Source: Marisa cornuarietis (taxonomy: Eukaryota > Mollusca > Gastropoda > Architaenioglossa > Ampullariidae). Taken from it: a stretch of 64,000 bases of DNA. The translations under genes were made by a program, and so were the position numbers. The DNA lies in contig SMMW01000456.1 in NCBI GenBank assembly GCA_004794655.1, positions 37,512 to 101,511 on the forward strand, given 5' to 3'. Below the pieces are notes generated by a model, which was given only the letters and a program-made list of their open reading frames with translations, was not told the DNA's origin and searched no databases. Positions 6,186-44,443 of the stretch are shown piece by piece; position 1 is the stretch's first letter, and each line of letters begins with the position of its first letter.

Positions 6186-6213
6186 AACAATTAACTAACT
6201 CCTACATTACAAC

Positions 6214-6969
6214 CAGTGGCGTGCTGTCTGTGGATACGGGGGACTAGGCTAGTCCCCTTAAAGTCTCAAGTAATCAGTTTTTTTTTTTTTTTTTTTTGAC
6301 GATACTTTAAAATAAAGTGTTTTAGAATTATTGAAAAGCGCCAGCGAAAAATGCGTCTTGCCTCTCTTCAAACCGTAGCGCCATTAGGGAACTAACCTTA
6401 GCAGTCGCTACCACGTTCCGCCTGCTGTTGATTAGAATTGTCTTCTCTACTTGGTGGATCACGTGGTCTTGGGACCAGGAGCCTGACTTCCCTTCCCGGC
6501 ATCACTGCCTGTGTTAGCGCCAGGTTGTCCTGTGTGTCAAGTTACATGCCAAGCTTCTACTAAAGATTGACCAGAATCCGTGGTTGCACAGTGACAATCT
6601 CCAACCTAAGTTTGTTAGTGTATTGTGGTGTCCACTGAGCGAACTTAACTCAGGACTGACTGAAAACAAAAATCTTTTTTGTAAATTAAGGTGGACTCGG
6701 TCGAGAAATCTGTTCCCTGCAATACGTCATGCGGGAACCCGCACCATCGATGTGAAGCTGCCTCTGATATTTTCACGTCATTATCATATAATCAAAATTA
6801 TCATAAAACCTGATTTATTTGTCGCTTGCTTGTATTACTATTTACGTAGTACGAAATACATGTTTAGGCATCAAGAGAAGCTGATTATGCAGGAAATCAC
6901 GTAGCATCTCCAGACCCCGCTGGGGGAGCTTACAGTGCTAGACCCCTAGCTTGTCCCCACACGCCACTG
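6214..6969. mobile_element. Non-autonomous hAT-type DNA transposon, 756 bp
   Basis: The ends are CAGTGGCGTG and its inverted complement CACGCCACTG, typical hAT termini. They are flanked by the 8-bp duplication ATTACAAC / ATTATAAC (one mismatch). Further subterminal sequence is partly inverted (GGACTAGGCTAGTCCCC versus AGACCCCTAGCTTGTCCCC). The longest open frame inside (106 codons at 6584) does not resemble a transposase. It inserted just beyond the 3' tail of the neighbouring LINE. Confidence 0.8.
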
Positions 6970-7377
6970 ATTATAACACATTTTGTCATATGCCTTCCAT
7001 TGTATAATAGAACAGCATCTCACATCTGTCAGTCTGTTTATAAGAGAACAGTGTGTTTATTGCAAAACACTCTATGCTTATATTTCATTGAGTCTTGGTG
7101 CACAGCATTGTGTAGCTGTATTTGTATTTTGGATGATCTGGTGGACTTTGTATGAAGCAGTGCTTATATTGTGTTGAGTTATTGTGCACAGTGTTATAAG
7201 CTGTGAATATTTGCAGTTTGGATGATCTGTTGGGTGTTGTGTCAAGCACTCCAATATTTCTGCCACCATGAAACTTTCTGTTTTTTGGCTGTCGGGGTCA
7301 GTACAATGACTTTTACTGCCGTGAGGAGTGGTCTACCTTACAGTCACAGGGTCTCCTGCTGCTCTTCACAGCTTTTT

Positions 7378-7870
7378 CTCGTGACCAGATGAGGGGTGTG
7401 AGGTGTGACCAGGTGAGGGGTGTGAGGTGTGACCAGGTGAGGGGTGTGACCAGGGGAGGAGCATGACCAAGTGAATGGTGCGATGTGGTGAGGAGCATGA
7501 CCATGTGAGGGGGATAACCAGGTGAGGAGCATGACCATGTGAGGGGGATAACCAGGTGAGGAGCATGACCATGTGAGGGGGATAACAGGTGAGGAGCATG
7601 ACCATGTGAGGGGGATAACCAGGGGAGGAGCATGACCATGTGAAGGGGATAACAGGTGAGGAGCATGACCATGTGAGGGGTGTGATGTGGTGAGGAGCAT
7701 GACCAGGTGAGGGGCATGACCATGTGAGGGGTATGACCAGGTGAGGGGCATGACCAGGTGAGGGTGTGTGACTTGGTGAGGGGCATGACCAAGTGAGAGG
7801 TGTGAACAGGTGAGGGGTATGATCAGATGACTAGGTGAGAGGCACGACCAGGTGAGGGACATGACTAGTC
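7378..7870. repeat. Minisatellite, about 33-bp units
   Basis: Units of the form GAGGAGCATGACCATGTGAG plus GGGGATAACCAGGT are repeated about fifteen times with variation. Overlapping minus-strand frames stay open (HMVMLLTWLSPSHGHAP-like), which follows from low stop density in the unit and is not evidence of a gene. Confidence 0.85.
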
Positions 7871-8009
7871 ACACAAGTGTTTAAAAAGTCATGGCTGATT
7901 CCTTAGTTCAATGCCCAAGACTGAGAGGAAAGAAGCGCTGTAGTTGATGGTTTTACAACTTTGGAGGACAGGTGTAATATAAATGGGCTAAGTTATTATT
8001 GTTGTTCTC

Positions 8010-8345
8010 GATAATGATCTTACAGCATGATAGAAAATTACTCTGTGAGGTTTTATATGCTGGGTTCTGATTCCCTCATATGACATGTCACATAATGAAA
8101 TAAGTGTATCAGTGGGCTTTGTTATCATTGCCTCATGACATTTCTCAAGCTGAACTAAGGCTATGAGTGGGCTTGGTTGTGATTCTCTCATATGACATGT
8201 CACATGCTCACCTCAGTGTATGGATAGGCTTGGCTGTAATTCCCTCATGTGACATGTCACAAGCCGAACTAAGTGTATGAGTGGGCTTGGTTGGGACTCC
8301 CTCATATCACATGCCACATGCTCACCTCCGTGTGTCAAAGGCTAG
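8010..8345. repeat. Degenerate tandem repeat, about 70-80 bp units
   Basis: Four to five imperfect units share CCTCATATGACATGTCACA and GTATGAGTGGGCTTGG. No coding or RNA gene was recognised. Confidence 0.65.
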
Positions 8346-8929
8346 CAGGCCACTTGCTGAACTCGGTGTATTAATGTATTTTTATTAGTGTGTAGGTAGC
8401 TTGCAGGTCTTTTCTGCCAATTCGCTGCTCATTTCAGATGTGAGTGAAGGAAACATTTCACATAAAAACTTTTTTTCTCAAAGAAGCACACAGAGTAAGG
8501 CTGTAAAATGTAAGTTTTGATGCTAAATGACTGCAGTCAGCTTGTTACCTTAGATCAGCTGCGCATTTCTGTTGTTATCTTGTTACCCTGAGACCATTTT
8601 CTCAGCCAGAGCAATTTAATTTGGTTTGAACACCTGAACAGTTTTGTATTGATTGTTTCTTCCCATTGACCATTATCACAGCTGGTGCAGACGTTTTTTA
8701 GTTTAATTGCGAATGTAACCATGTAGCCAAAATTCTTTGTGACCAAAATTGACCAAGTCTCTTAGGACATAGAAAAATGCATGAGAACAGTATAATTACA
8801 AAATATTCAAGTATTTCATAGTTGCATTTTAGAGTTTTATTGCAAATTTAAACTTAGTAATATGTGTTTCATGCTCGTCTCAGGAGGAGAAGATATATGA
8901 TCTGGACCGTACTTCATGACCAGCTGGGT

Positions 8930-9200
8930 AGATTCTACATTGCTGGGTACAGTGCAGTAACCAGTGTTTAACACATTGTGCTGAAGTGTCGTAGATTACC
9001 TGACTATACTTGCTGGGTACATGCAGTACCAGTGTTTAATAAACTTAGATACAGTGCAGCAACCAGTGTTGAATAAATTGGGCTGTAGTGTTATAGATTA
9101 CTGACTATACTTACTGGGTACAGTTCAGTAGAAATGTTGAATAAATTAGGCTGCAGTATTGTAAACTACTGACTATAATTGCTGGGTACAGTGCACTACA
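8930..9200. repeat. Degenerate tandem repeat, about 80 bp units
   Basis: Four units share TGCTGGGTACAGTGCAGTA and GTGTTGAATAAATTGGGCTG, with drift between copies. Confidence 0.7.
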
Positions 9201-9245
9201 ATTCACAGTGTTGTATAAGTATTTGACTGTGATGTTACTTTGTGA

Positions 9246-9247
<2 letters not shown>

Positions 9248-9297
<50 letters not shown>
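9248..9297. repeat. (TG)n microsatellite
   Basis: About 25 uninterrupted TG dinucleotides. Confidence 0.95.
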
Positions 9298-9299
<2 letters not shown>

Positions 9300-9814
9300 C
9301 AAATTGCATTTGATGCCTACCCTTAAAATGGGGTATGTTTATGCGAGTATTCAGGTGTAATATTGATTAAAAATCACTCTTTGTCATATTTTATGCGCTA
9401 GGTTGTGATTCTCTCATATGTCACATGCCAAACTTCGTAGATTAGTTTATAAACAAATACATTGGTGTGTACACAGGAACACAAATCACAGACGTGTGTG
9501 CTGCTGTCATAGAAATGCTGCAAAAATATGGATTGATGATGGAGGTGGAAGCCAACAGCTACATAGAGTCACTGGAGCGCAATCACCGCTGGCAGGTTGA
9601 AACCTGGTCTTAACACAAGTGAAATGTTCCACTTTGTGTTATCACATTTGTCAAGTGAGTTGAAGGCAACAGAATTGCCACTTGCGGAAAGCAGTGCTTG
9701 GTGAAGGTTTGTGGTTCTCAGCTACTGAATGATGCTCAGACTAAGGACATCAGCAATAGAAGAGTTACCTCCAGGATGTGGTGTACATCTTGGGTGAATA
9801 AAGGCTGATTAACA

Positions 9815-10410
9815 TCCACATCTACCCTGGGTGGCAGACTGTACAGTCTCTTCTGTGAAAACATGTATTCAGTCCGCACCTACCCTGGGTGGTATATTGT
9901 ACATTGTTTTTTGTGAATACATGTATGCAGTCCAGATCCACAACACTTGTTGTCTATGTTTTAATTATGGGCCATGGGTCGTGAGTCAGAGTATGTGTGT
10001 GGGAACAGAGTGACATCAAAGCGTGTATCTGCTGATTACAAAGTGCTGCATGTCCTGAGAAAATTTGTCACACAAGTGTGGATATCGCAGAACACAGAGC
10101 ATGACATCAGCTTTAGTCTGGTGATTACAAAGTGCTGCTTGTCCTGAGAAAGTTTGTCAAGTGTGAATAACACAGAACACATGACATCAGCTTCTATGTA
10201 TGTATTGTCTTTTGTTGGGTAACCTCTGACTGTGGGTATCATAACAGACACACTACACAGCTTGTATGTATGTATGTATGCATGTATGTATTTATTGTCT
10301 TTTGTCTGGTATCCTCCGAAAAGTGGGTATCATAGCAGACACACAACACATGATATCAGCTTGTATGTATGTTGTCTTTTGTTGGCTACCATCTGACAAG
10401 TGGGTATGCT
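9815..10410. repeat. Paired direct repeats
   Basis: Two about 67-bp copies containing ACCTACCCTGGGTGG lie at 9820-9935. Two about 95-bp copies containing GATTACAAAGTGCTGC and GAACACATGACATCAGC follow at 10030-10195. Related TATGTATGTATTGTCTTTTG units run to 10410. No gene recognised. Confidence 0.6.
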
Positions 10411-12537
10411 GCTCCATTGGTACTGGTCATCAGAAGAATAAATGGATAGTTGCAACCGATGACAAGGCTAGCCATTTAATTAGGTCTGTCTTGAGCAGTT
10501 GTGAGCAGTCCTCACTGGAATGACCAGTCTATTCCCTCCTTTTTACCAGCCACTTCTTCCTCAGTCTACTTCAGTGTTGTCAAGGTCAGGAATTAACTGT
10601 TAGGGTGAGTTGTGTGGGTCAGTGCTTCACGCTTGTCAACACCGGGTGCCACAGTTGCTAGGCAAGCTAGTGTAAGGAGGCAAGAGTTTTTGGAAGATGC
10701 TAGAAGGGCTAGCATGAAACTTTAATGGGATTAGGTGCCCATTTTTCACCGCAGGGAGACATGCTGGTCGCAACGTCTGGCTATGCGTGGTGAAGACTGC
10801 CTGCCGAGCCTGGTGAACTATCTTAGATATTACCAGAATTCTCACTACTGTTATTTCCCCAGGTGGTGCTGGATGTTTTTTCACAACTGTCCATATTTTT
10901 ATTTCTTGTATTTTTTTGGTGTATGTCGCACCTCCTTCTCCCAAGTCAAACCATTCTTTCCGGTCATAAACAAGATGCACCTAATCCATCTTGAGACAAA
11001 AAGGCGGACCTGGGGTGAAAAGTAAATTGTGAATGACTGGCAGGGGACTGGCAGAGAAAAAGCATGAGAAACAGAACCTGAGGGCGGGGTCGGTTCTGCT
11101 GTGGGCTTAGTGTCTTTTCAGGGTGGTTTTTTTTTCTTTCCGTTCCACATTTCTCTTTGTTGTTTTTTCTTGTAGTGTTAGTAATAAATTCGTGTCCCGT
11201 ATTGTCTTCATGTGCATTTTTGTATCTGTTCGCTGAGGAACGGTTGGCTACGTGGCTTTCATCGGGCGTGCGAGTGTCTGCGTAGCTGAGAGTGTGTGTG
11301 AGAGAGTGTGTGAGAGTGTGGAAGGTACGGCGCTCGATTGCAAAACGCGACAAGATGGACGGTCAAGTATTTGTACTCACATACCTTTTAAACATTCGCT
11401 GCCAGTCTTTCCGGGTTGGGATGCCCAGGTGCCTTTGCATCTTTCCCCCAACAAGTCCCCCCCTCCCTAGACTAAGTCGCCAAATTGTACATCTCCAGAC
11501 TGACCAGCTTTCCAAGATGTACAAGTTCACAAAGTGCACGAGGGGAAATGAAGGACAGAAATGTGCGGGCAGTCATGAATGGAGTGGAAGATATGAATGC
11601 TGTTTACACCTAGACTTTCCGGCCTGAATGAAATGTGCTTTTGTCCAAAACTTTTGTCATTTAGAAATGTCTAGAGTGCCAGACATCCGAGCTTGCAATA
11701 ACCACCACGCTGGTGCATTAAGTAAAGAAATGAATAAAATAAAGCCAACACAAATATTGATGGGAAGACACCAGACTCTCTGTACCAGACATTCATGGCA
11801 ATTAAGCTGAGTTTTGCTGCGATGACTGTGTGAAATATTTTATTAATCAAACAACCCTCGTCCTCCCTTCACACCGATTGACTGTGAGGCCAAGTGTCCA
11901 GAGACCAGACTTGTCTTCTTCCAGTGTCGTTGCTGATGTAAACAGTCATCACTGCCGTCAGTGGCACTGCTGTGACCTGACGGAGGTCGGGTGGTGCACG
12001 CAGTGGCTGCAGGCGGCAGACACATACAAGAGCAGGTCACTCTGGCATAGTACGATGGGGATGGGTGTGTCAATGCAGCGAGGAGGGGAGCTAAGAGCTG
12101 TTGATGTTGAGACGCTTCACGAGGACCGATTCACCGATCTGCAACAGAAGATTGAGAAAAGTTTTTAGGGCTATCGTAAAAACAAGGCTTGAGACTAGCT
12201 TAGCCCTCACATGAGGACCTTATTGTGGGTAACCGAACTGTTTAACGGAGACTTTGTGACCAGAATGTTTAAGCGCTAACATGAGAAGACAGCCCCCGGG
12301 GCAGACTGTCCCTTTTTCTACACACAGGTGTCAAGTGACCACGTGTTAGGTGGGGTTACCTGGCAGAAACAAGTGACAGCACTCGCTTTTAAGGTGGTTT
12401 ACATTCTGAGGATGGCCACAGCGGGGACACTTCATTTCCGCAGTCGGCGTCAGGTTATATGGTCAGTAACATCAACGACCTTTTCACAGTCTGGGATATG
12501 CGCCAGGTGTCGGCATTTTATATGACAGTTCCACCCA

Positions 12538-12538
<1 letters not shown>
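10411..12538. other. 3' flank of the prohormone gene, nothing assigned
   Basis: Open frames of up to 129 codons occur on both strands (for example 10636-10980, 10964-11353 and 11830-12168). None has a recognisable domain, and the frames overlap each other on opposite strands. I cannot support a gene here. Confidence 0.4.

Positions 12539-12602
<64 letters not shown>
12539..12602. repeat. (GT)n microsatellite
   Basis: About 31 uninterrupted GT units. Confidence 0.95.
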
Positions 12603-12603
<1 letters not shown>

Positions 12604-12889
12604 TTCATAGTCGCGCGTATAATCATTATAAATTTGCCACATAATTTAATGATGTGTTTATTACATAAAATAATTATGTATTACTTACTACTGATCATGT
12701 ATTAATGTTACAAACTAGATAATCTATTATTACATATGCTGATCACATTATCATTAAAACTGGTGTTATAATGTATAGTTATGTGACAGGGAATCTAATA
12801 TACATATTTTACACTAATTATTGTGATGATGGTTTATCATTTATACAGAGTGTTCCTACTCGAATTTCACACTGTAGACCTCCTAGCAG

Positions 12890-12895
12890 TTTATT
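12890..12895 (-). terminator. Candidate poly(A) signal of the prohormone gene
   Basis: AATAAA on the minus strand lies about 300 nt past the stop codon at 13193, a plausible 3' UTR length. A second AATAAA lies further on (minus 12662-12657). Motif only. Confidence 0.35.
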
Positions 12896-13192
12896 AAAAT
12901 GAGACAAACATTTAAAATATCAGTTCAGAAATATGCAAGAGATTTGAATACAAAGAAGTATAGAAAATAAAGATGACGACATTGAAGGAAACTAAGTAAC
13001 ATCAGTTTCCGGGATATAAAGTGGCAGTGCGCTCCCAACAAACCGACAATCTGTTATTTCAGTTTCCCAGTAGACACACACAAACACACCCTCTCTCTCT
13101 TTCTTCCCGCATTCCTCTGTTAGTTTGTAAGTGTGTATCTATGCGTGCGTGTGTGAAGCTGTCATGGCGCGTGCACGTGCAAGTCGCGCTCA

Positions 13193-13295
13193 CTAGTTCG
13201 GGAGGTTGGCATTGTTCTCCAGGGTGGCCCTCTCCACGAGTGAGCGAAGGAGCTGGTACCGTTGTTCGTCTGTGAAGTCCCGCTTCTTCTTGCCG
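13193..13295 (-). CDS. Secreted peptide prohormone, coding exon 3 (last)
   Basis: After the acceptor CGCTGCAG the exon starts with one base that completes the split codon from the previous exon. It then encodes Gly-Lys-Lys-Lys-Arg, a glycine amide donor plus a multibasic cleavage site. Next come 28 residues beginning DFTDEQRYQLLRSLVE and ending NNANLPN at a TAG stop. In the joined protein the GKKKR occupies residues 74-78 and the tail 79-106. The tail is predicted helical and could be a second peptide or a spacer. A minus-strand AATAAA follows about 300 nt downstream. Confidence 0.65.
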
Positions 13296-13945
13296 CTGCA
13301 GCGATAAGTACACCATGTTTACAACCAACGACATTTTGGCGAGACTTTCTTACTCATATCTTGCTCATTAACTGTATTTGTATTACTAAGCTCAGGTAAA
13401 CGCTATGTCATGCCTATATGTAAGAGTAACAGACACCTGAAATCATTTGTGCCATCTGCAGTCCAGCTGCTTAGTCTTAGTTGAGCTGTCAGTGGTGTGT
13501 GTGTGTGTGTGCGTGTGTGATGTTGTATGTGTATACTTGAGTTCCCTGTGAGTTTTTTTTAAATCTATATATATATATATTTCCATTCACTGTTGAACTA
13601 GAGCACATTCCCATATTCAAATTGCCCACTGGGATAAATAAAGTTGGTCATTATCATTGTCATTGTCATTGTACCTACACAGTGGCCGGCTTTCAACTCC
13701 TATGAAAATACACAACAGTACTCAACAAACAAACTCAAAACAAAACGAACTATAAAAGCATCTGTTGCTACCAACAGTAACTTCATCAGTGTTTGCTCAA
13801 TGATGTGTAAGATTGTGGGCACACTGTGTACCCTGCTCGGGACACACGAGACATCGTGACAGTAACTGCATCGACGATGAAGCTGACGATAGACCGGTGA
13901 AGAGTATACACGTCACTAGGGTGAGAGGATGACACAAAGTACGAA

Positions 13946-13948
<3 letters not shown>

Positions 13949-14002
<54 letters not shown>

Positions 14003-14020
14003 GTGAGAGAGAGAGAGAGA
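13949..14020. repeat. (TG)n followed by (GA)n
   Basis: About 26 TG units, then a short GA run. It lies in the second coding intron of the prohormone gene. Confidence 0.95.
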
Positions 14021-14560
14021 ATCTTCTCCTTGTCATATGCGTCATTATGTCTGGTGAGTACAAGTCAGTTCCCTCATTCAGGAAACACAGACCAAGTCTT
14101 TACACGATCCTCTCAGGCCCATTGCACACTCAATCAGAATTGCATCCTCCCCCATAAACACGCTTCAATATTTTTTCTTATAAAGTTTCCATGATTACTT
14201 TTCACTCCTTTTTTTCAAGTACTAAAAGCGAGAACTTCCGAAACAAACAATAGAAAGGGGTGCATTGTGTACCCGCTCACAGAACAACCACCGATCAGAG
14301 GTAATAAGCACAACAGGAGATGAGATAGCAAATAAGCAAAACCAAAATTGGAAGTAGAGAGACAGCATGAAATATCGTCTAAGATATTTGATAATGAACA
14401 CAGACGTTATAATAAACGTAACAAACTAACACGGTACGAGCTGTGAATACGTTCGCACCACAAGAAAATACCAAAGAGCAAGTTGTGGGAGTAGTCATGC
14501 AAGAAAGTTTTACAGAACACAAATACAAGCGAGCAGCTTGACGCAAAAGAAACATTTAAG

Positions 14561-14565
<5 letters not shown>

Positions 14566-14597
<32 letters not shown>
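14566..14597. repeat. (CA)n microsatellite
   Basis: About 15 CA units, intronic to the prohormone gene. Confidence 0.95.
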
Positions 14598-14603
<6 letters not shown>

Positions 14604-14732
14604 AATACATACATATATCTATATATAAACATAGAATAACGCACACAATCACTGCATGCTGTTTGAACGTACGAAAGACGGCGTCACAGAGACGATCATG
14701 TGTGACGCACATGACTGCTCGACCTACCAATG

Positions 14733-14800
14733 TGACGTCACGGACAGACAACTTTCCAATGTGACGTCACAGGGACACAGCTCGCACTGAACTGACGTCA
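14733..14800. promoter_or_regulatory. Cluster of three CRE palindromes
   Basis: Three exact TGACGTCA sites lie at 14733-14740, 14762-14769 and 14793-14800, spaced 29-31 bp. This is the palindromic CREB/ATF site. They sit in the intron between coding exons 2 and 3 of the prohormone gene. The sites are seen directly; enhancer activity is inferred from spacing and context. Confidence 0.5.
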
Positions 14801-15037
14801 TCAGACAAATGCCAAGGTTGCTGATGTTGTTTCCCGGCCGGCGAGGGGGGGGGGGAGGAAAGAGACGCAAACTCGACGACATGGATGATATGACAGATAT
14901 CTGTGTTACCTACATTCTGAGAGGGTCAAACTGTCCGTGAGCCACCCGCCTTCAATTTCCGGTCAACGCCAACAAGGCCTGCAACTCTGCTACCCTCTTG
15001 TCAGAGGAAGATCTACGGACTCAGTGAAAGAAATCTC

Positions 15038-15073
<36 letters not shown>
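15038..15073. repeat. (CA)n microsatellite
   Basis: About 17 CA units. Confidence 0.95.
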
Positions 15074-15075
<2 letters not shown>

Positions 15076-16167
15076 GCTCAATCACAGACCACTCGGGCAA
15101 GCCGCCCACAAAGACATTCTTTAATGTCTGTCTCTCTCTCTCTCTCGGGTCTCCCATCGCACGGTTTCCTATGTAACACACGGCAACGTGTGAAATAGAG
15201 AGACGATGCAGGTTAAAGGTCCTGTGTAGCACTCGGCAGATGTGTGCAGCAGATGATCCCAGCTAAAGGTTCTAAGAAAAAGGTTGCGAGGTAAGACGTG
15301 AAACGTACCGTTGACCATCTAACGGCACGGTGGCTGGCTTGACGTTGGGTCGACCCTGGGGATACTGGCTACACAACATGGTCTCGCCGTATTTCCTTGT
15401 CTAGGCTTCCTGACCTTGAGCTTGTCGTCAGAACATCCGTGTGAGTATCTGATCAACAATAGGACTGTAGGACTGTTTGCTGACTCCGTCTTCAGATTGT
15501 ACAACGTGTACAACACCAACAATGTTTTTGCTGATCCTGTTTACAGAACACAGGTTCATGCACTTGGAGTGACGTAAGTTGACATGCTTGAGACAAAGTT
15601 TGCTGATTGGAATGATCGATTTGAAGCTTGAAAAATAGACAGGGAAGTAAAATATATCCAGAAAATGTTTAGAAAAAAAGACTTCCTTTGACATTAGAAA
15701 AAGGGTGGATGGAGTTTGTTTCTTCATGTACACAGACAACGTGGGGAGCATTCACGACGGAACGTTGTATGCGCATGCGCACACAGGAACTGCACGACGT
15801 CACACAGCGTTTGGACGACGTTTTAAAATGCATATTACAACGACAACTCACGATAATAGAAGAAAACACACAGCATTAAAACAAAACAGTGTCGCTTTCA
15901 CCAAAACATTTTCCGCAGTCCACAAACAGCAACGAAACACCAACACACCTCCCCCAGTGACGTTCGCACACAAACTGATGGTCAGTAGCATGGATGTGGA
16001 AATACACGCATGCGGTAAGCTACGTGTATGACAAGCTGGCAGAATTGTAAGAAATGTAGCTGTGAGTTCAATGTTTGATCTCTCCACCAACCCAAAACAA
16101 ACTACTGGCGCGCTCATGCTCAGGAAAGCAACAAGACAGGAAGAGAGGGGGCATGTGAGAAAAGTAC

Positions 16168-16290
16168 CTGCTGATCACATCGACTAACCCGCAGGCTATC
16201 TCCGTACAGTTCCCGGATTGCTCCTGTCTTTCCAGTGCAATCAGCGCCAGGTACTCAGCAAGTTTGACATCAGCCGCCTGTCGTCTGTGC
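16168..16290 (-). CDS. Secreted peptide prohormone, coding exon 2
   Basis: This 123-nt exon lies between the acceptor CCAGTTCCAG and the donor CAG/GTACTT, with one base at its start and two at its end belonging to split codons. Its first base completes Arg32. It encodes H-R-R, so the junction gives R-H-R-R, a furin-type site. A helical segment VKLAEYLALIALERQEQ and the Cys-x4-Cys motif NCTEIACGLVDVIS follow. Cleavage after Arg35 and at Gly74-KKKR would release a 38-residue amidated peptide starting with Gln (possible pyroglutamate) with one disulfide. I do not recognise the family. The Cys spacing equals that of CGRP, but the position is wrong for a calcitonin-type ring. Confidence 0.65.
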
Positions 16291-16448
16291 CTGGAACTGG
16301 AGATCAGCTGACTTGCATTGAATCAGGTGACAGATCAGGGAATGTTGTACTTGCAGAGAATCAGTTAAAAAGTCGGGGGGGGGAGCTAGCAGGCCCTAAT
16401 CTCCCCACCCCTTCCACTAGGTCACTATTTTGCCTCACATTCAGACAG

Positions 16449-16583
16449 CGACGTCACTATTTCTGCTCTTATTCGCAGACATTGACGTCACTATTTCCTC
16501 ACACATACAATGACGTCACTACTTAATCTTACGTTCACAATGACGTCACTATTTCCGCCTCAAGTTCGCCGACCATGACGTCA
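16449..16583. promoter_or_regulatory. Array of CRE sites in the first coding intron
   Basis: Exact TGACGTCA sites occur at 16483, 16511, 16541 and 16576, with a one-base variant (CGACGTCA) at 16449. Spacing is 28-35 bp, and most are followed by CTATTTC or a close variant, so the array arose by tandem duplication. It lies just upstream of coding exon 2 within the intron. Palindromic CREs are classical cAMP/CREB targets. Confidence 0.55.
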
Positions 16584-17872
16584 CCGCTTTCGTCTGTTCA
16601 TTCACAACTATTTCGTTCATAGATTTCTTGTTGTCAGCTCAGCTCTGTCCTGTCAAATATTGCACGTGTGAAAGCCCTTAAGAGGTGAATCATCGTGGCT
16701 ATTTTCAAATGGTCGCAGAAAAAACAAATGAAGAAAGGACATGGGAATGCACGGTGCAGTAACTTGTTTTCCTTCTGCTCGGTCGTCTTGGCCTCAGCAC
16801 TACATCATTCAGCAAAGTTTTCTCCCTTCTAGCGTTTGAACTGAACACATCCGCTGCTCTCCCCTCCTGCCCTCTAGACTACTGCCTTCTTCCTTTTCCT
16901 CAGAATTAAAGCACGAAACCCTTGTTTTCCTATGGAATGAACCGGGTAGCAGACTGCCTGTAAGAAAGGTCAAGGTTCTGTCGCTAATCACTAACTTCCA
17001 TCGCTAAATAGTTTTACTGTGGGAGGGGTGCTGGGGTAAAGCAGGGCGGAGGTGGCTTGCACTGACGTGCATCTCTGGACTGCTTGCAGAAAGTTTTCCC
17101 CCGCGTAATTTCTAGAACGAGGCCAAAACACAAGTTCGCTTCCGGTTTAACTATCAACATCTAGAAGAAGAGCAGACACTACGAACTCTCGTGTTGATGG
17201 AGGTACAAAAGCTCAAGCTTTATTGCCTGTTGTGTTTTCAGTTTATTGGCTTTAAGCTGTGGAAACTAGATGTCGAGGACTTTTGTCAAAAAAGAAAGAA
17301 AGAAAAAACAAGCAGAAATTTTGTTGCAAGTGTATTGTTGACTTACATCGCGGTTCCGGATATTAAATGTTAAATGGTTAGCCGAGACCTGGCAGCCTAC
17401 AACTTCGCGAGAAGCTATAAGTTGGTCTGCGCAGACAGCCAGCAGTCCAGAGATATACTTCCTCCATGGTTGTAGGTGGGGGGGACGCACTAGAGTTCTG
17501 GTGAAAGGTCTGCTGGGGGTGGTAGTAGCATCTACAGCATCATTTGTAGTAACACCAGCAGCACCAACAGGACTAAACCAAACCATTTGATGGACGTTCT
17601 GCCAATAATGTGTCACATCTTTGAGAACAGACGCTGACTGAATCATCTCGCGAAATATTTCATTTTAAAACAAACGACGTCGACGCTGTTGTTCATATGG
17701 TCCAAAACCTGGAGTCAGTTACCTAGGTAACAGGTAGCTAACGGGTAGGTCTCTTGTGTGCACGACATATATGGTTATGATCTCTAGATATTTCTGTTTA
17801 ACTATACAAAAGAGTGATGGACAGGAAACAAGACAGAAAAGGACAGTCAGGTAGGCCAACAGATGTTCTTAC

Positions 17873-17978
17873 CTGACAGCGTCTGGAACAGGACTTGCTT
17901 GTGACGAGGTGAGGAACAGGATACCAGCGAGGCAGGTGACAATAACAATGAGGATCTGTTTTTCCATGGCTGTTGCTG
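17873..17978 (-). CDS. Secreted peptide prohormone, coding exon 1 with signal peptide
   Basis: The exon follows the acceptor CTGTTGTTGCAG, and its ATG at 17967 is in good context (ACAGCCATGG). It encodes MEKQILIVIVTCLAGILFL then TSSQA/SPVPDAV, a textbook signal peptide with likely cleavage near residue 24. It ends two bases into a codon at the donor AG/GTAAGA. Joining exons at 17967-17873, 16290-16168 and 13295-13193 gives exactly 321 coding nt (106 residues plus stop), with phase kept at both introns. The layout (signal peptide, furin site, amidated Cys peptide, tail) is that of a neuropeptide or peptide-hormone precursor. Confidence 0.7.
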
Positions 17979-17989
17979 CTGCAACAACA

Positions 17990-18621
17990 GACGTTTCACA
18001 TTTTTCTTACCGTGTGCACGTAGTCCTATGTGTTAACAATACTGTACAATTTTCAAAGAGTTATTTTGGACATTCAAAGACTAAAATTTTCCACAAAGCT
18101 CGAGAGTCACTTTTGAGTTTCGTCTCATTTTTCTGTCTACATTAAGTCCAAGATACTCTGTACAAACAGTCAAAAACTTGACAATCTCAGTAAATTTACT
18201 CCAAGATACTTTGTACAAACAGTCTTAAGAGCTTGACAGACAATCTCAGTAAATTTAGCAAGTCAGACAACTGTCCACCTTTGTACCTCCATGTGTACAG
18301 AGAGAAAGACAGACAACTGTCCACCTTTGTAACTCCGCGAGTACATAGAAATGACAGTCAGTAATCAACATGTTTCCATGTATCCATAGTGAAATGTTCG
18401 GTGTTGAGGGCGGACCCTGGACTACTGCTGAAGGTTTAAAATCGATGCATATGATGAGCTGTGTTCAGCTCTGACAAGTCTCATCTACCCCATCAGCCTG
18501 CAACCCGTTCTTCACGGAGCATCTTTAGACTTGAATACAAATTTCTAAGCCAATATGTTAGCAATTACGAATAGTTTTTTTTTTTTTAGTTCGCAAAGCG
18601 GCGAACGTAAAAAAAGGCGTG
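17990..18621. other. Intronic sequence with direct repeats
   Basis: Two copies of a segment containing CCAAGATACTNTGTACAAACAGTC and CAATCTCAGTAAATTTA lie at about 18148-18260. Two copies of GACAACTGTCCACCTTTGTA follow at about 18268-18345. No exon recognised. Confidence 0.5.
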
Positions 18622-18673
<52 letters not shown>

Positions 18674-18683
<10 letters not shown>

Positions 18684-19658
18684 CTTTTCGTGCTAGTTGT
18701 ACATAAGGCCTCAACTAGAGCCTGCCACTGATGTCGATCGGCTGAAACTCGCCCCAGGCGACCCCATGTCAGCCCTTTCCTTTCATCTCCCTTTCCACTG
18801 TTCTTCTCCAGGTTTCCTTTGGGCGACCTCGTTTTCTTCGGCCGTCTGGAGTCCATCGTAGGGCGATTCTGGAGAGGTCTGCTGTCTGCTGGCGGAGCAC
18901 ATGTCCAATCCATCGCCAACGCCTTCGTTTAACCAGCGTGGTGATGGACTCGGTTTCAGTTCTTCGGTGGAGTTCTTCATTGGTGATGGTGTTTGGCCAA
19001 AAGTATGCGCCTGAGACATCTGTTTTGGAAGACGTCAAGCCTGTTACCGATGTTTTTGGTCATCTTCCATGATTCTGATCCATAAAGGAGGGTGCTGATC
19101 ACATTCGACTTGAAGAGTCTTAGCTTCGTCTTTGGCTGATGATTTTTGCCTTCCATGTGCCCATTGAGTGAGGCGAAGGCTTGGCTGGCTTTTGCCTGTC
19201 GGGCTCGAATCTCCACCTCCGCATCCCTGGTGTTTGACATCTTGGACCCAAGATAGGTAAAACTATCAACTTCCACAACCTCTTCTCCATTTAGTTTGAT
19301 GTTTTCTTGGACTATGGCATTCACTCTCATACTTTTTGTTTTCTTTGCGCTGACCTTCAAGCCAAGGTGTTTCTGAGAAGGCATTTGTTTTCTCCTGCAT
19401 GTCTTAATGTCGGTGTGACAACATGGCAAAGTCATCGGCAAAGTCCAAGTCTTCCAGCATTGTTGTTGCTGTCATAGTCATGGTCCATTTGATCCCTCTC
19501 CTCTCTCTGTCGGTGGAATTCTTAATAATCCAGTCCATGGCCAGGATGAAGAGGAACGGCGACAGAATGCAGCCTTGCTTCACCCCAGTGTTGACGTTGA
19601 AGGGTGCTGTGAGCTCCCTGTCACAGACCACCTGAGATTTGAAGTCGCTGTACAGCAT
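18674..19658 (-). pseudogene. RTE RT C-terminal half and tail domain, frameshifted
   Basis: Frames running from 19658 down to 18674 encode the RT catalytic box (LDFADDFAM), with VKQGCILSPFLF before it and a thumb-like region with DSFTYLGSKMS after it. The C-terminal block reads WRWIGHVLRQ, then RGRPKETWRRT. Frame changes occur near 19420, 19000 and 18800, so no intact protein can be made. Confidence 0.8.
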
Positions 19659-19709
19659 TCCAACGACCTGGACAATTTTCGCAGGGACTCCGTAATGCCT
19701 CAGGATCTT

Positions 19710-20180
19710 TCATAATGACTCGCGGTGGATGCTGTCAAAAGCCTTCTCCAGGTCGATGACGTTGATGTACAGCGGTGCGTTCCACTCATTGCTCTGCTCC
19801 AGAATCTGACGCAGAGTGAAAATGAGTTCAGAGCAGGATCGCCCAGGGCGAAATCCTGCTTGCTCAGGCCGGAGGTCTTTCTCAACGGATGCTGTCAGTC
19901 TTGACAAAACAATCTTGCTGAAGACCTTACTGGTGAGGGAACGAAATCCTATACCACTCCAGTTATTGCAGTCTCCAAGATCTACTTTCTTGGGTAACTT
20001 GAAGATGAGCCCTGTCTTCCAACCATCGGGATTGGGGATCTGTCCTGATTCCCAAACTTGCTTGAAGATTTCAGTCAACATGGGAGCTGTCACATTCACA
20101 TCTGCTTTCAACATCTCTGCTGTTATTCCATCTGCCCCTGGTGCTTTGCCGCTTTTTATTGCCTTGATTGCTGCTGTCAC
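19710..20180 (-). pseudogene. RTE RT N-terminal half
   Basis: A 156-codon frame contains the RT start motif SGKAPGADGITAEMLK, the region WKTGLIFKLPKKVD...CNNWSGIGF, and the catalytic IDLEKAFDSIHRESL. It belongs to the same LINE as the neighbouring frames and ends at a frame break just after the first catalytic Asp. Confidence 0.85.
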
Positions 20181-20409
20181 TTCTTCCAGGCTTGGCGGGT
20201 CTGTGCAGATGATAAGGTCTCTCTCTCTGCTGGCTGGATGTCTGCGAGCTGAGGGGGCTCTGGTCTGTGTAGAACTGACTCAAAATGTTCCCTCCAGCGC
20301 TATAGTTTTTCTGCCTCTCCATCAACAACATTTCCGTTTATGTCTTTCACTGGTATCTCACTGTTTTTGAACCTGTTGTTCAGCTGTTTATTGATTTTAT
20401 ACAGTGTTT

Positions 20410-20862
20410 TCAGGTCATTTTTCCTGCTTCTTCTTCTGCTTCATCTGCCAGTTTCTCTCTGTAGTCCCTTTTGTCGGTTTTGATCATCCTCTTTACCTCT
20501 TTGTTTATTTCTGTATATCTTTGTCTGCGTTGTTCCTTCAGACGTTCAGATCTGGTGTTGTTGATTTTCTGCTTGGTTGACTTTCTTTCTTCTATCCTTT
20601 TCCATGTCGTTTCTCTGATCCACTGCTCTTTTTTTTTTTTTGGTTGGAAGCCCAGTATTTTCTTTCCTGTTTTCTGTAAGACTCGATTGAAGTCCTCTAA
20701 GGTCATTTCCTGTTGGTCCCCTAGTGCCTGGAACCTGTTCTTTACTTCCACTACAAAGGCCCGTTTAGTGGCTGGGTCCTTCAGTGTGCCGGAGTCCATT
20801 CTCTGCTGACCTGCCTGTTTTCCTCGCGATCGACGTAGCTTCAGAGAAACTGCGGCTATCAC
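20410..20862 (-). pseudogene. RTE linker between endonuclease and RT
   Basis: A lysine/arginine-rich 150-codon frame (for example EQWIRETTWKRIEERKSTKQK) matches the charged linker that follows the endonuclease in this LINE type. It is out of frame with both neighbours because of intervening indels. Confidence 0.6.
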
Positions 20863-21069
20863 AAGAGTGTGGTCACTGGCAACGTCTGCTCCTCTGTAGG
20901 CTCTGACATCTTGAAGTGAGCTCCTCCATCTTTGGTTGATGATGACATGGTCTATCTTGTTTTTTTGTGATCCCGTCTGGTCTACGTTGCCTTGTGGATG
21001 TCTTTGTGTTGGAAGAGTGTGCCTCCAGTCAGTAAATTGTTTTTATTTACATAAATCTGCCAGTCTCTC

Positions 21070-21651
21070 TCAGTTGTCATTGATGGTTCCAATTCCATGC
21101 TTGCCCATGATATGCTCCCTGCAGGTGTTGTCACTTCTCACCTTGGCATTGAGATCGCCAGTGATGAGCAACATATGGGCTCGGACGCTCTCCTTGGCTG
21201 CCTGGAGCTGATCGTAAAAAGCATCCTTGTCTTCTGCCTCGGAGTCTTCTGTTGGTGCATAGCAAACTAGCACTGTCAGCTTGGTGTACTTTGAATGGAA
21301 TCTTGCTCTCAGAAGCCTCGGTCCATAAGGCTTCCATTCCAGCAGTGTCTTTTCAGTTTTCCTATTGAGGAGTAGTGCTACTCCTTCAGAGTGTTGGTCG
21401 TCTGATCTTCCTGAGAACAAGATAGTATGTCCTGATGATATTCTCCTCTTTCCCGTGCCGGTCCATCTGACCTCGCTGACTCCCAGGATGTCCAAGTTGT
21501 ACTTGTCAAACTCCTTGACTAGTTGGGGCAACCTGCCAGTCTGATACAAGGTCTGGACGTTCCAGCACCCCACCCTCAACTTCTGCTTCGGCTTTAGTAA
21601 ATCCACCATCGGGGCGCCAGCTCCCTCTCGGGTTTGACTGTCGTCCGTCAT
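21070..21651 (-). pseudogene. RTE LINE apurinic endonuclease domain
   Basis: A 193-codon frame shows LRVGCWNVQTLYQTGRL, LDILGVSEVRWTGTG, LTVLVCYAPT and LLITGDLNAKV, the order of catalytic blocks in APE-type endonucleases of RTE elements. The His-containing last block is lost to a frame break at 21070. In the full element this domain nicks target DNA to prime reverse transcription. Confidence 0.85.
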
Positions 21652-21763
21652 AAGTCCAGTTTCCTGGTGTGTTTCATTACCTTCGCCAACCGTAACGAGT
21701 GCTCTAGTGTTGGTTTCTGTAACTTGTGAAGCTGATTACAAGAGTTTGAAGAGAGTCGCTCAC

Positions 21764-21923
21764 CTGGTGTTCACTTGTCAGTTGAACCTGTGACTCGCTC
21801 TCTGACGCGGCTTCGGAGAAAAGACTTGGGTGGCGAGTAGTCAGCCAGAAGGCACCTATCGTCTGCCGGGTGTGGCTCGTGGCGGAGGCGACTGCTGTCT
21901 CTTCCTCGGGACTGGAGAGTGAC
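21764..21923 (-). other. Predicted non-coding first exon of the prohormone gene
   Basis: On the minus strand this stretch starts about 25-30 bp after a TATA box, contains no ATG, and ends at the consensus donor CCAG/GTGAGC. The next usable acceptor on this strand with a start codon behind it is at 17979, ahead of the signal-peptide exon. The intron in between holds the RTE LINE. Linking this exon to the prohormone gene is inference. It could instead belong to the LINE 5' UTR or another transcript. Confidence 0.45.
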
Positions 21924-21947
21924 CGCAGCACAGACAACTCCAGGTCT

Positions 21948-21985
21948 TTATACACCGCGCGACAACGCTCGCATCACTGACGTCA
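21948..21985 (-). promoter_or_regulatory. TATA box with upstream CRE
   Basis: On the minus strand TGACGTCA (21985-21978) lies about 25 bp upstream of TATAAA (21953-21948). This spacing resembles CREB-controlled peptide-hormone promoters such as somatostatin. A start near 21923 would give the ATG-free exon listed separately. More CRE arrays lie in the downstream introns. Confidence 0.5.
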
Positions 21986-22299
21986 CGATCTGCCCACAAC
22001 ATGCGGGCTCACAGGCTCAAATTATATAACACACTCTTTCTGTACACGTGGAAAACACAACGAAAGGGGAGGTGAAGGAGAGAACGAAGCCCAAGGAAAA
22101 AGCCAGAGAGAGAAAAATTGGAGAAAATGTGATCCCACTCTTGTTGGTACCAGCTGTCGTTATAAGGGTGGTTCAAAAGGCCAGAGATAGGGAGATAGAG
22201 AAAGATGGAGAGATGGTGTTCCCACTTCCCATGGTACCAAATATCGTTGTAGCGGTAGTTGAAAAGAAAGACAAAGACAGGAGTTAACATGGTTAACAT

Positions 22300-22301
<2 letters not shown>

Positions 22302-22356
<55 letters not shown>
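22302..22356. repeat. (GT)n microsatellite
   Basis: About 27 GT units. Confidence 0.95.
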
Positions 22357-22358
<2 letters not shown>

Positions 22359-22659
22359 AGCGCGGTGATGCTAGCCACGTGGTAGAAGCATCCTGATGAT
22401 AATTTCAGACTGTGGTGGTAGCAGCTGTCTTTACAGTAGTAGTTCAAAGTACGGCTTCCACAGCACGTATGGTTCGTATAACAAATCACACGGCTGAGAC
22501 TTCAGTGACTCACTTGACGATATTATTGAAGAAAATTAGATGTTCTTTTACTTCAACTGACCCACCTTAATATTTGTCTCCTTAACATGTTAATGCTCCT
22601 AGAGTCGGCTGTGTTAGCTGGTCATTGTAAAGGTTCACCATGATATCTCCCGTGTCACC

Positions 22660-23715
22660 TCCATGTAGGAACTAGTAGTTTAGTTTGACTACAGTAACTC
22701 ACCATGTCAGCTCCCTGTAGGAACTAGTTGTATAGTTTGACGACAGTAACTCACCATGCTAGCTCCCTGTAGAAATGAGTTGCATAGTTTGACTACAGTA
22801 ACTCACCATGCAAGCACCCTGTAGGAACTAGTTGTATAGTTTGACTACAGTAACTCAACTTGCGAGCTCGCTATAGGAACTAAAAGTTTAGTTTGACTAC
22901 ATTAACTCACCATGCTAGCTCCCTGTAGGAACTAAAAGTTTAGTTTGACTACAGTAACTCACCATGCTAGCTCCCTGTAGGAACTAGGTGTTTAGTTTGA
23001 CGACAGTAACTCACCATTCCAGCTCCCTGTATGAACTATTTGTATAGTTTGACGACAGTAACTCATCATGCTATCTCCCTGAAGGAACTAGTAGATTAGT
23101 TTGACGACAGTAACTCACTATGCTAGCTCCCTGTAGAAACTAAAAAAAAAATATTGACTACAGTTACTCAGCATGCTAGCTTCCTGTAGGAACTAGTTGT
23201 TTAGTTTGACGAGAATAACTCACCATGCTAGCTCCATGTAGGAACTAGTTGTATAGTTTGACGAGAGTAACTCACCATGTAGCTCCCTGTAGGAACTATT
23301 TGTATAGTTAGACTACAGTAACTCACCGTGTAGCTCCCTGTAGGAACTAGTTGTATAGTTAGACTACAGTAACTCACCATGTCAGCTCCCTGTAGGAACT
23401 AATTGTTTTGTCTGACTACAGTAACTCACCATGTCAGCTCCCTGTAGGAACTAGTAGTTTAGTTTGACGACAGTAACTCATCATGCTAGCTCCCTGTAGG
23501 AACTAGTAGATTAGTTTGACGAGAGTAACTCACCATGCTAGCTCCCTGTAGGAACTAGTTGTTTAGTTTGACGAGAGTAACTCACCATGCTAGCTCCCTG
23601 TAAGAACTAGTTGTATAGTTTGACTACAGTTACACCATGCTAGCTCCCTGTAGGAACTAATTGTTTAGTCTGACTACAGTAACTCACCATGTCAGCTCCC
23701 TGTAGGAACTAGTGT
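22660..23715. repeat. 52-bp minisatellite, about 20 units
   Basis: Units run GTAACTCACCATGCTAGC, TCCCTGTAGGAACTAG, TTGTATAGTTTGACGACA, with scattered substitutions and one- to three-base indels. The array ends abruptly where a LINE fragment begins near 23712. Confidence 0.95.
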
Positions 23716-24405
23716 GGGGTCTGACACCTTTTAGTGATATTGAAAAAGTTCATCTATTCGCTATGAAAAGGTTTCTGTGCTTAGACATTAAAACTCATAA
23801 TGCCATGGACAGGTCAAGATTTCCAAACCAAGCTTACAACATTCAGCTCAATCTAGGACTACGTGGGCGAAGGCAATACAAGATACCCTGCACAACTACG
23901 GATTTAGACGTATGGGAACAAAGCGGGGTAGGAGATGCTAGGGCTTTCATCTTGCTGCTCAAACAAAGATAGAAAGACAACTTTATACAAAAATGGACAG
24001 ACAAAATGCAGTCGAGTAATAGGTTGTTAGCCTACAGAGAGTTTAAAAAGGAATTTAAACCAGAAAGGTATGTTTCAGTAATAACTATAAAAAGTTCAGA
24101 AATACTCTAATACGATTTAGACTGTGGATTAGCGAAATAAACACTAATAACAGATATTGTAACACCTGCATCAACACCTGCCCTGATTGCCAAGACAGAA
24201 GGGAAGATGAAGAACATTTTGTGCTAGAGTGTCAAACCTTTGATGACATCAGGGCCAAGTATCCTGCACCCCTGATAAATGACGGGTACCAGCAGACGAC
24301 GTTGGCTGTGTTGTTGTCTCGAGGGGAAACTAACGAGATCAGAAATGTAGCGATGTACATCTTGTATGCTTTACACAGACGCAACGAGAAAGTTGGAAAC
24401 ACTTG
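23712..24405 (+). mobile_element. 3' end of a LINE with zinc-ribbon tail
   Basis: Plus-strand frames encode EKVHLFAMKRFLCLDIKT, then DVWEQSGVGDARAF and a Cys/His block CPDCQDRREDEEHFVLEC. This is the zf-RVT-like C-terminus seen after the RT of common invertebrate LINEs. A stop at about 23970 and a frame change near 24090 break it. Endonuclease and RT are absent, so it is a 5'-truncated copy. Confidence 0.7.
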
Positions 24406-24491
24406 ACAAACAATGTGACCCCATGTGGTTGGACTCACAGGACTGACCAACATGTAAACCACGCTGGGGCCGGTGGCCTAGAATGTGTGTA

Positions 24492-24492
<1 letters not shown>

Positions 24493-24565
<73 letters not shown>
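24493..24565. repeat. (GT)n microsatellite
   Basis: About 35 GT units with one early interruption. Confidence 0.95.
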
Positions 24566-24567
<2 letters not shown>

Positions 24568-24599
24568 GTACGTAGGTTTACGAGAGGATAATAGAAGAG

Positions 24600-26239
24600 A
24601 AAGAGAGAGAGAGACGGCTAAGGGAAAATAGTTTCGGGGAGTGTGATGTGCGTGCGTTTGTGTGTTTGACCAATTGAGGATTGTGCGAGCTATGATAGTA
24701 TAGGGAAGACAGAGTAAGAGAAGGCAAATGAAGAATGGTTGGTATGAGTGTAGATGTTAAGAGGTTGAAAGGATATGAACGTATTAATGCACTTGATGTT
24801 ATTCATGTCTTATATATGTATATCTTCTTTTCGGACGATGATAAAATTGTATCTCGCCCTATTTGAAAAGGTCGTTGACCCATCAAATAAATATTTCTTG
24901 TTCTTGTTCTGGCAACACTTGCTGCACTCGCTTACAAAATCCGGAACCGCGAGAGAGAACTAAAAAGCCTGCGGTTCGATGCCATATAAGGGAGAAGGCG
25001 GCTTCCATTGAATACTTTATTTACAAACAGGAAATTAGGAAAGAAAAGCTGAACTCGCCGCGACAACGATAAACTTACCTGAGAACTAAATAATCTCTTT
25101 CATGTCTCGACTACGCGGTCCGCATTGTGTACGTGAAAGGTAGTCACATCCTTTGATTTCCCCCAGGTAAGATTTGAACCCCCAGTCACGTGATGAACTG
25201 ATGACTTCGTCATGACCGGCGGACAACAAATTAACACGACATCTGCTGGTCTTGTTAGAAAGCAATATCAAACATCAATACACATGTTGGTCCTAGTGAC
25301 AGCTACAACATCACTCTAGCTAACATCCTGTAATTGGAAAAACTTAGAAACGAGGCTGCGCCTGACAGGCTGAGTTGCTTTGTTCTCCTGTGAATTTTTC
25401 CATTTTCTCGTGCAACGTCTTTGTTATTCATACCCATAGGTTTCTTATCGTTGCAAGTTGTATTTGTTTCTCTTAAGATTTCCTCTGTTATTGTTTTACT
25501 ATCTGTAAGTGCCTCGCTTTTATGTTTTTGTTGCGGACTTTACTTTTAACGGTTACATTCATCGCCATTACATAGATTTTACATCTGATTCTTTATCTCG
25601 CTTTCCTGCTGCTTGTTCTGTTTATCCTTCTCTGAACTTAGCTCAACTTTAAATCCTTATCAGTTCCAATATCTTCTATCGTTTTTGTCTTATTGTATTT
25701 TTTGAACTCGTGCTGCATTTTATTTTTATGTCATAGAATTATGACAAGACAGTTTGTCTAGTCGACATCTCAGTTATCATTATTGAATCCCCTTGTAACT
25801 CTCCCACTTCCAGCCTGTTTAGTTGACACTTTAAAGGAGTTTCCCTTTATTATGATTCTATTAATATTGACTGCCCATCAAAACAACAGATTCGAATCCG
25901 TCGCTATCGTGCTGGTCGCCGTAAACAGCGTCCTTTGAAAAAATCCATCACCTGCTCTGCTGCTCGTAGTTATTCTGTCTCGTGCCCCCCTTCACCTGAT
26001 TCTGAGTCTGACTCCGGTATTGTGAAAGCTTCGCTGTGTGTCAACTCTTCTTCTGAATCATGTTTCCCCTACACAGCAGCATCAGCGTCAGCGTGGACGT
26101 GATGAGAGTGAACCAGTTGGTCGACTACCTTTACGCCAAACCAACATGGTCGTCTGAGAACAGGACACTGCCAAGTTTCCCGCACACGACAACTGAACAC
26201 TCGCCTCCACGTTGGGCTTTTCAACGCCCAGTCTGTGTC
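24600..26239. other. Unassigned sequence
   Basis: No gene recognised. GGGTTCAAATCTTACC on the minus strand near 25175 resembles a pol III box B, but no box A was found, so a SINE is not called. Confidence 0.4.
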
Positions 26240-42984: not shown

Positions 42985-43225
42985 GTTTGTTTGCTGACAA
43001 AAAACAACATATTACAACATATTACAACAGGGTGTAACAGACTATCACGCAGGAGGTTAAAAAAATACCTCACTGGATGACAGAATTATACAACGGTGTC
43101 TCTCCAGTAATAAACAGCGGTAGCTAACAGAAGTAATACTGTAAGAGAAATAATCTAAAACTCACCAAATGACTTAGAGATAATAGTCAGCTATTATTTA
43201 ATTTACCAAAATGTTGCTGCCACAG

Positions 43226-43972: not shown

Positions 43973-44443
43973 GTTTCAGTTTCCTTCTTTTACCTTCTAC
44001 CTACTTAGCAAGTTAGGTCACAAAGTACATTTTTCAACAGACATGTTTAGCATTTTGTATTTGTAACACAAGTAGAGGAGACGATACGCTATGTTCGGTT
44101 CTCATATTGTGTTTTAAATGCTGACTCACAGACGTTAGATCAGCGGTTACAGGTACATAGCCTCTCTTTTATGCACATTATATATTATAATTTATATTCC
44201 CCGTGTCATCTCTACACGGTTTGTGGCAGATAAATGATTTGTTTACATGAAGTCATTGCAAGCAGACCTTTCTTCTGTCTTTTAATAAAACTATTGTCAT
44301 GCTGTTATCAGACTACATTACTGACTCTTATATACATTGTACTTAATGTCTGAATGCTGTGGAGTTGTACTCGACTTTGCTTCTGTCATCTTATATTTAC
44401 TAATGTCACATTTCATGATGTGGACAATGTGGTTTCTTTACAG

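Follow-up and report, generated by a model that had tools for sequence, protein, structure and literature searches.

The window analysed here is a 64-kb stretch of Marisa cornuarietis DNA (contig SMMW01000456.1, positions 37,512 to 101,511 of the forward strand), and its minus strand carries a four-exon prohormone gene that is probably a duplicated member of the QSamide/PXXXamide neuropeptide family, left without a usable PXXXamide exon and specialised for a single diverged amidated QS-type peptide. Among relatives, a single gene yields two peptides, the annotated isoform pairs joining a QSamide-type exon (exon A), a PXXXamide-type exon (exon B) or both to a shared signal exon and a shared exon for amidation and tail. 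The window copy keeps the promoter, the signal exon, exon A, the tail exon and the six splice sites needed, and has no usable exon B; because exon B carries a stop and has lost its AG acceptor, this copy is predicted to make only one amidated peptide, of QS type. The family, the exon anatomy, the dead exon B, the presence of three copies in the genome (C488, the window copy on C325, and C297) and the pattern of rates at which the parts of the gene diverge are established by the comparisons below.

Structure of the gene

The whole gene model was rebuilt from the window DNA, and the features that an earlier sequence-only reading had described on the minus strand were all present and joined in frame. 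Positions are those of the window.

21978..21985, minus strand: cAMP response element (CRE), TGACGTCA, in the promoter; common to all three gene copies
21947..21952, minus strand: TATA box, TATAAA, 25 bases from the CRE; common to all three copies
21764..21925, minus strand: exon 1, a leader without ATG, its start placed from the TATA box; donor GTGAGC from 21763
17873..17978, minus strand: exon 2, with a short 5' leader, the ATG at 17967, the signal peptide and the start of the propeptide; acceptor TTGCAG before 17978
16168..16296, minus strand: exon A (QSamide-type), with the SSRHRR cleavage site and the peptide QAADVKLAEYLALIALERQEQSGNCTEIACGLVDVIS(S); acceptor 16296 by homology
16170..16280, minus strand: predicted mature peptide, residues 1-37 of 38, codon 38 being split by the exon A/exon 4 junction
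14914..15021, minus strand: remnant of exon B (PXXXamide-type), with TG for AG at the acceptor, an in-frame TGA, and the donor AT/GTAGGT kept
13193..13295, minus strand: coding part of exon 4 (103 nt), with the GKKKR amidation/cleavage site, a 28-residue tail and the stop TAG
12890..12895, minus strand: polyadenylation signal AATAAA, read from the sequence

The CRE, the TATA box and the ATG-free exon with its GTGAGC donor lie where the sequence-only reading had placed them. CRE, TATA box and exon 1, including this donor, are kept in all three copies, and over 262 alignable bases promoter and exon 1 of the window are 92% identical to C488 and 98% identical to C297. The precursor runs from a signal-like N-terminus (judged by eye) through RHRR, 38 residues with Cys-x4-Cys, and GKKKR to a tail of 28 residues, the processing motifs claimed earlier all being recovered in the rebuilt translation. 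The gene is not a chance arrangement of such parts, because the protein of Pomacea canaliculata LOC112560658 X1 (P0001) matches over 100% of its length (59% identity, E 8.8e-44) and the same exon order recurs in two more copies in the genome.

Splicing of the window gene was assigned from homology and phase. The sequence-only reading had proposed three coding exons in matching phase with the exon-A acceptor at 16290, which, given 95 nt of coding sequence in exon 2 (17967-17873), yields 95 + 123 + 103 = 321 nt, or 106 residues and a stop; the joins are indeed in frame, but the acceptor backed by homology lies 6 nt upstream at 16296 (CTCCAG/TTCCAGG), the AGs at 16290 and 16284 both being in frame downstream of it. 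We favour 16296 because SSR-x-KRQ stands at the join of exon 2 and exon A in the Pomacea protein and in many exon-A isoforms of other snails; the precursor then reads ...DAVSSRHRRQ... and is 108 residues long, while the 38-residue amidated peptide is unaffected. The earlier picture of a four-exon CRE/TATA precursor, predicted to release a 38-residue C-terminally amidated peptide with one possible disulfide, is thus upheld. Transcription would start from the CRE promoter and, by analogy with related prohormones, the product would be cut after RHRR and at KKKR and amidated at the Gly, perhaps with pyroglutamate at Gln1 and a C25-C30 bridge; the predicted MH+ of the mature peptide, amidated and with one disulfide, is 4018.03, or 4001.00 with pyroglutamate, and that of the C488 QS peptide is 3960.94 or 3943.91. 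The peptide may act on a class B1 PTH-type receptor or a derivative of one, a pairing unproven in molluscs.

Two small differences among the copies concern the same exons. Exon A of the window reads N-C-T at 16203-16211 (minus strand), a possible N-glycosylation site spanning the first cysteine, with no counterpart in C488, C297 or Pomacea. In exon 4 of C488, TGG takes the place of the window's TAG and is followed at once by TGA (C488:726365-726370), which gives one extra residue.

The disabled exon B

Isoforms of the Pomacea gene contain an extra module, VRRSSSDQRIAELQALLALTGNGGRVAHGQFDPLRI, which follows exon A and precedes the GKKKR exon, and the window has its counterpart at 15021-14914, with 86% identity and an in-frame TGA. 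This alternative exon and the other copies in the genome had been overlooked in the earlier inventory, the four exons of which are otherwise present. At the exon-B acceptor C488 reads ttcacAG/AGTCCGTAGG and the window ttcacTG/AGTCCGTAGA; the next AG in the window, 2 bases on, would lead to TAG after two codons. The stop is a change from GGA, which encodes Gly in C488 and in Pomacea, to TGA in the window. With the AG acceptor lost and the in-frame TGA in place, exon B of the window is therefore disabled twice over, its donor being intact. A usable pair of QS-type and PXXXamide exons, as seen in C488 where both are open, is not present in the window; such alternative A/B exons typify the oyster gene and many relatives, not every member of the family. 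No further A-type exon of the kind found in Batillaria and Lottia was detected in the window introns by tblastn.

Copies of the gene in the genome

With the Pomacea protein as query, a search that copies closer to the window than to Pomacea could escape, coding exons of the gene were found at three places, C488, C325 (the window) and C297; two weak extra matches, on C464 and C533 (E 0.59 and 0.84), were left aside. C488 is the intact copy, with exons 2, A, B and 4 all open. In C297 exon 2 is split by an insertion of about 4.5 kb (C297:137302-141822) that has 10 bases repeated at its edge, and no exon B turned up in this copy. Intron 1 carries a retroelement that is common to the window and C297 and has no match in C488 in the stretch compared:

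19713-20279, strand not given: reverse-transcriptase element in intron 1, the RVT_1 domain match lying within this interval

The alignment of C297 with the window extends, with gaps, from window position 6200 to 25337 at 87-96%.

Eight more copies of promoter and exon 1, 98% identical to the window, lie at C325:6462-6758, C324:8058-8354, C323:111237-111533, C306:16187-16483, C305:17023-17319, C262:9563-9859, C261:16675-16971 and C260:93670-93966. The stretches that hold them are near contig ends and are 99.5-99.9% identical to C325:1-7400 (6.8-7.4 kb compared), and four of the contigs have lengths of 20-21 kb, which would suit amplification of a unit of about 20 kb. No coding exons were found beside these eight copies at E<=0.05 in the stretches fetched.

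Divergence of exon A

Rates were counted as substitutions at aligned gap-free sites, and intron windows were 100 columns wide with at least 50 aligned sites. Counting gaps gives an intron divergence of 8-16%, and the substitution-only counts were used in its place. Binomial tests at assumed rates of 0.098, 0.12 and 0.16 gave p=8e-5, 0.002 and 0.066. Between C488 and the window the introns differ at 277 of 3611 sites (7.7%; 302/3780 when all intron sites are taken), exon 2 at 3/95, exon 4 at 2/103 and exon B at 5/108, whereas exon A differs at 27/129 (21%), nearly three times the intron rate. The excess of exon A over the introns (27/126 sites against 277/3611) gives p=1.7e-6, and exons 2 and 4 taken jointly (4/192) lie below the introns with p=9.5e-4. 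No other part of the gene has diverged as far as exon A, whose rate is reached in 4 of 1195 sliding windows; each of the 12 windows listed as highest overlaps it. All of the 17 changed codons alter the amino acid (none is synonymous), nonsynonymous sites alone exceed the introns (24/95, p=2.7e-7), and dN/dS by Nei-Gojobori is 3.2 (24.2 nonsynonymous and 2.8 synonymous differences). With Pomacea as outgroup, 16 of 42 residues have changed in the window only and 1 in C488 only (p=2.7e-4). Exon A also runs ahead of the introns between the window and C297 (nonsynonymous sites 15/90 against 146/3518, p=7e-6). Because exon A outran the introns while signal and tail stayed still, these figures suggest that the mature peptide has been under positive selection since the duplication, and the excess likely reflects a new ligand property and not plain decay.

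Several results weigh against this reading. Eight of the changed codons stand side by side (22-29 of exon A) and may have arisen in a single event; with these removed, exon A exceeds the introns less clearly (14/102, p=0.026). The comparison of nonsynonymous with synonymous sites inside exon A (24/95 against 3/31) gives p=0.08, as do the 17 amino-acid changes when set against the rate of the fastest intron window (14.8%), and dN/dS, 3.2 for C488 against the window, is just 1.4 for C488-C297 and 1.3 for window-C297. W13, G17 and G18, invariant in 26/26 same-length modules (a count that includes isoforms of one gene and leaves out seven short-loop proteins and, among 30 matched modules, 4 whose length differs), have become L, E and R in the window, and exon 2 of the sister copy C297 is interrupted; both findings also fit loss of function. 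Pomacea, finally, was compared as protein and does not order duplication and speciation.

These last points lead to the chief rival, that the window copy is a young pseudogene in which exon B was lost after duplication and exon A is drifting, the clean exons 2 and 4 being due to luck or recency. We consider this unlikely. It accounts for the lesions, that is, the two in exon B, the three lost invariant residues, and the insertion and lacking exon B of the C297 sister; nor does the open frame of exon A speak against it, since at the neutral 7.7% a stop arises in only 32% of simulated exon A sequences. Drift alone, however, should not beat the intron rate, and a pseudogene does not explain an exon that outruns the introns between two that are nearly frozen. 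Promoter, TATA box, CRE, leader and the six needed splice sites are moreover intact, and so are Cys25, Cys30, GKKKR and most of the AD..AEYLA..IAL core, the family positions kept in the window peptide being both cysteines and A3, D4, V5, A8, E9, Y10, L11, A12, I14, A15 and L16.

It is also rather improbable that the three places amount to fewer than three loci, at least C297 and the window being strongly diverged haplotypes of one, in which case duplication would be overstated. The shared intron-1 retroelement and the long gapped alignment of these two copies would suit that explanation, but their introns differ by 4.2% in substitutions and by many indels. C488 is a distinct locus regardless, with its 7.7% intron divergence and no match to the intron-1 element in the stretch compared, so the comparison of C488 with the window is independent of the haplotype question.

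Family assignment

The sequence-only reading had left the family unrecognised; the precursor belongs, on the homology described here, to the QSamide/PXXXamide family, orthologous to insect iPTH, which is already in print as QSamide/PXXXamide, iPTH and QSGamide. At a cut-off of E<=10, two profile searches matched 64 proteins out of 1412 candidates and 98 out of 7396; together with the first protein search they gave 106 distinct related proteins. Where an organism is named, it is a gastropod, a chiton, a bivalve, an octopus or a nemertean (Tubulanus), and none of these labelled relatives bears a functional name, the names being 'uncharacterized', 'hypothetical', 'predicted' or 'unnamed'. Sorted by module pattern, 57 of the 106 have exon B alone and 30 have exon A alone; both occur in 12, and the remaining 7 show neither, these being, by eye, exon-A modules with shorter loops. 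Conservation of the Cys-x4-Cys...GKKKR frame in related species, which had been suggested as a check on the gene, was found. Some loci give a pair of isoforms, one with exon A and the other with exon B, as in Babylonia LOC143301301 and LOC143286572 (P0012/P0015 and P0016/P0026). Batillaria, Lottia and Bradybaena precursors (P0003, P0008, P0020) carry two tandem QS-type modules, and exon duplication therefore recurs in this gene family.

The link to the published family was made in the oyster, by the peptide names PALIamide/PYKIamide and by splice logic. All three Magallana gigas matches (P0040, P0044, P0060) of the profile made from the Pomacea and window proteins contain DPALIG, and P0044 has DPYKI and DPALIGRRKR, fitting Cragi-PYKIamide and Cragi-PALIamide as named in the passages seen of PMC8398477. 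According to the same passages, differential splicing of the oyster QSamide3/PXXXamide gene gives QSamide or PXXXamide peptides, including PYKIamide and PALIamide, QSamide1 and 2 come from separate genes, and all of the mature QSamide/PXXXamide peptides but QSamide2 were detected by mass spectrometry (MS); Lottia is named in a figure legend there (PMC8398477). Scallop QSamide is likewise described as confirmed by MS (PMC5996578, in the part seen). The window has the layout of the family (signal-like exon 2, RHRR, 38 residues, G-KKKR and a 28-residue tail), and of the QS-type features it has the Cys-x4-Cys, its N-terminus being QA and not QS (the S stands in 24 of the 26 same-length modules counted above). 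PXXXamide/iPTH features are absent from its live peptide, which has AD and ends VISS; SD...DPLR occurs solely in the dead exon B. It is very improbable that the peptides are unrelated to known neuropeptides, as the want of a convincing Pfam family, a solved relative or a functional name might suggest, given how well the oyster matches fit the names and splice logic of the QSamide3/PXXXamide gene in the text seen of PMC8398477.

Other searches gave little. Pfam returned no family for the window protein and 8 families each matched by a single one of 15 relatives, the best at E 0.0098; sequence searches of the PDB found no solved relative and a single match, at E 1.4, that is put down to chance; six exact peptide words typical of the family had no match in the papers searched, and no apple-snail member is described in the QSamide/QSGamide/PXXXamide literature found. 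The R15 neuroactive polyprotein of Aplysia is alternatively spliced and was considered as a candidate, but no protein so named is among the matches listed, where Aplysia is represented by LOC106011723 (P0028), and the literature passages give no support.

Comparison with known systems

Relative to Pomacea LOC112560658, the window has a homologous precursor with 30/31 signal residues (exon 2; 31 in C488) and 31/33 tail residues identical, but exon A is canonical in Pomacea (61% identical to that of the window) and exon B is open there. The oyster Cragi-QSamide3/PXXXamide gene, as far as the passages of PMC8398477 go, keeps its PXXXamide exons, whereas the window copy has none that is usable. 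Tribolium iPTH is described in the part seen of PMC7224569 as having a dibasic site, an amidation signal, an N-terminal SD and a mildly conserved Pro at -4, which exon B of the relatives fits; exon A of the window differs in having AD for SD, no Pro at -4, and Cys-x4-Cys. The same source identifies PXXXamide (iPTH) as an activating ligand of PTH-type class B1 receptors in Tribolium (PMC7224569), and spiralian QSGamides are given as iPTH orthologues in annelids, molluscs and brachiopods, the receptor pairing being unproven in Lophotrochozoa (PMC8557429, passages seen).

Precursors of conotoxin type have a conserved signal region. The window gene resembles them in evolutionary pattern only, with kept cysteines and hypervariable loops (PMC3823881, in the part seen). 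The likeness is one of pattern and not of membership.

Other features of the window

The octamer TGACGTCA occurs 12 times in the 64-kb window, 8 of them in this gene (four in intron 2, three past exon B and one in the promoter), so that intronic CRE arrays of varying copy number lie within a neuropeptide gene.

16421..16583, minus strand: intron-2 minisatellite with a 32-base unit and four CRE octamers; the matching intron has seven in C488 and five in C297
14733..14800, minus strand: three CRE octamers shortly past exon B; C488 likewise has three

At 58012-62591 (minus strand) there is a retroelement of long terminal repeat type with two open frames, gag-like (SCAN, zinc knuckle), Integrase_H2C2 and rve being followed by reverse transcriptase and RNase H. 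The integrase thus stands ahead of a Ty3-type reverse transcriptase, which is the order of GmR1-like elements. Two open frames that do not resemble transposons, at 43202-44008 (plus strand) and 49324-49719 (plus strand), are possibly exons of one gene; one has no Pfam match and one matches a P-loop family (AAA_16, below the curated cut-off).

Significance

The gene now has a family, and no functional name is attached to any of its labelled relatives in gastropods, bivalves, a chiton or octopuses. The assignment ties gastropods to PTH-type signalling, whose mollusc receptors lack a proven ligand according to the passages seen of PMC8557429. A control is present in the same genome, where the one-peptide copy, with a mature exon that diverges beyond the introns, can be set against an intact copy for two peptides. 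Going further than a duplicate specialised for one diverged peptide, it is conceivable, although we hold it with some doubt, that in a lineage like that of the apple snails the duplicate gave up the PXXXamide hormone of its ancestor and its QS-type peptide became, under positive selection, a new ligand, the signal and tail being frozen, the loop rewritten and invariant residues replaced. If that is true, the gene would show a neuropeptide midway in its change to a new hormone, a pheromone or a secreted effector.

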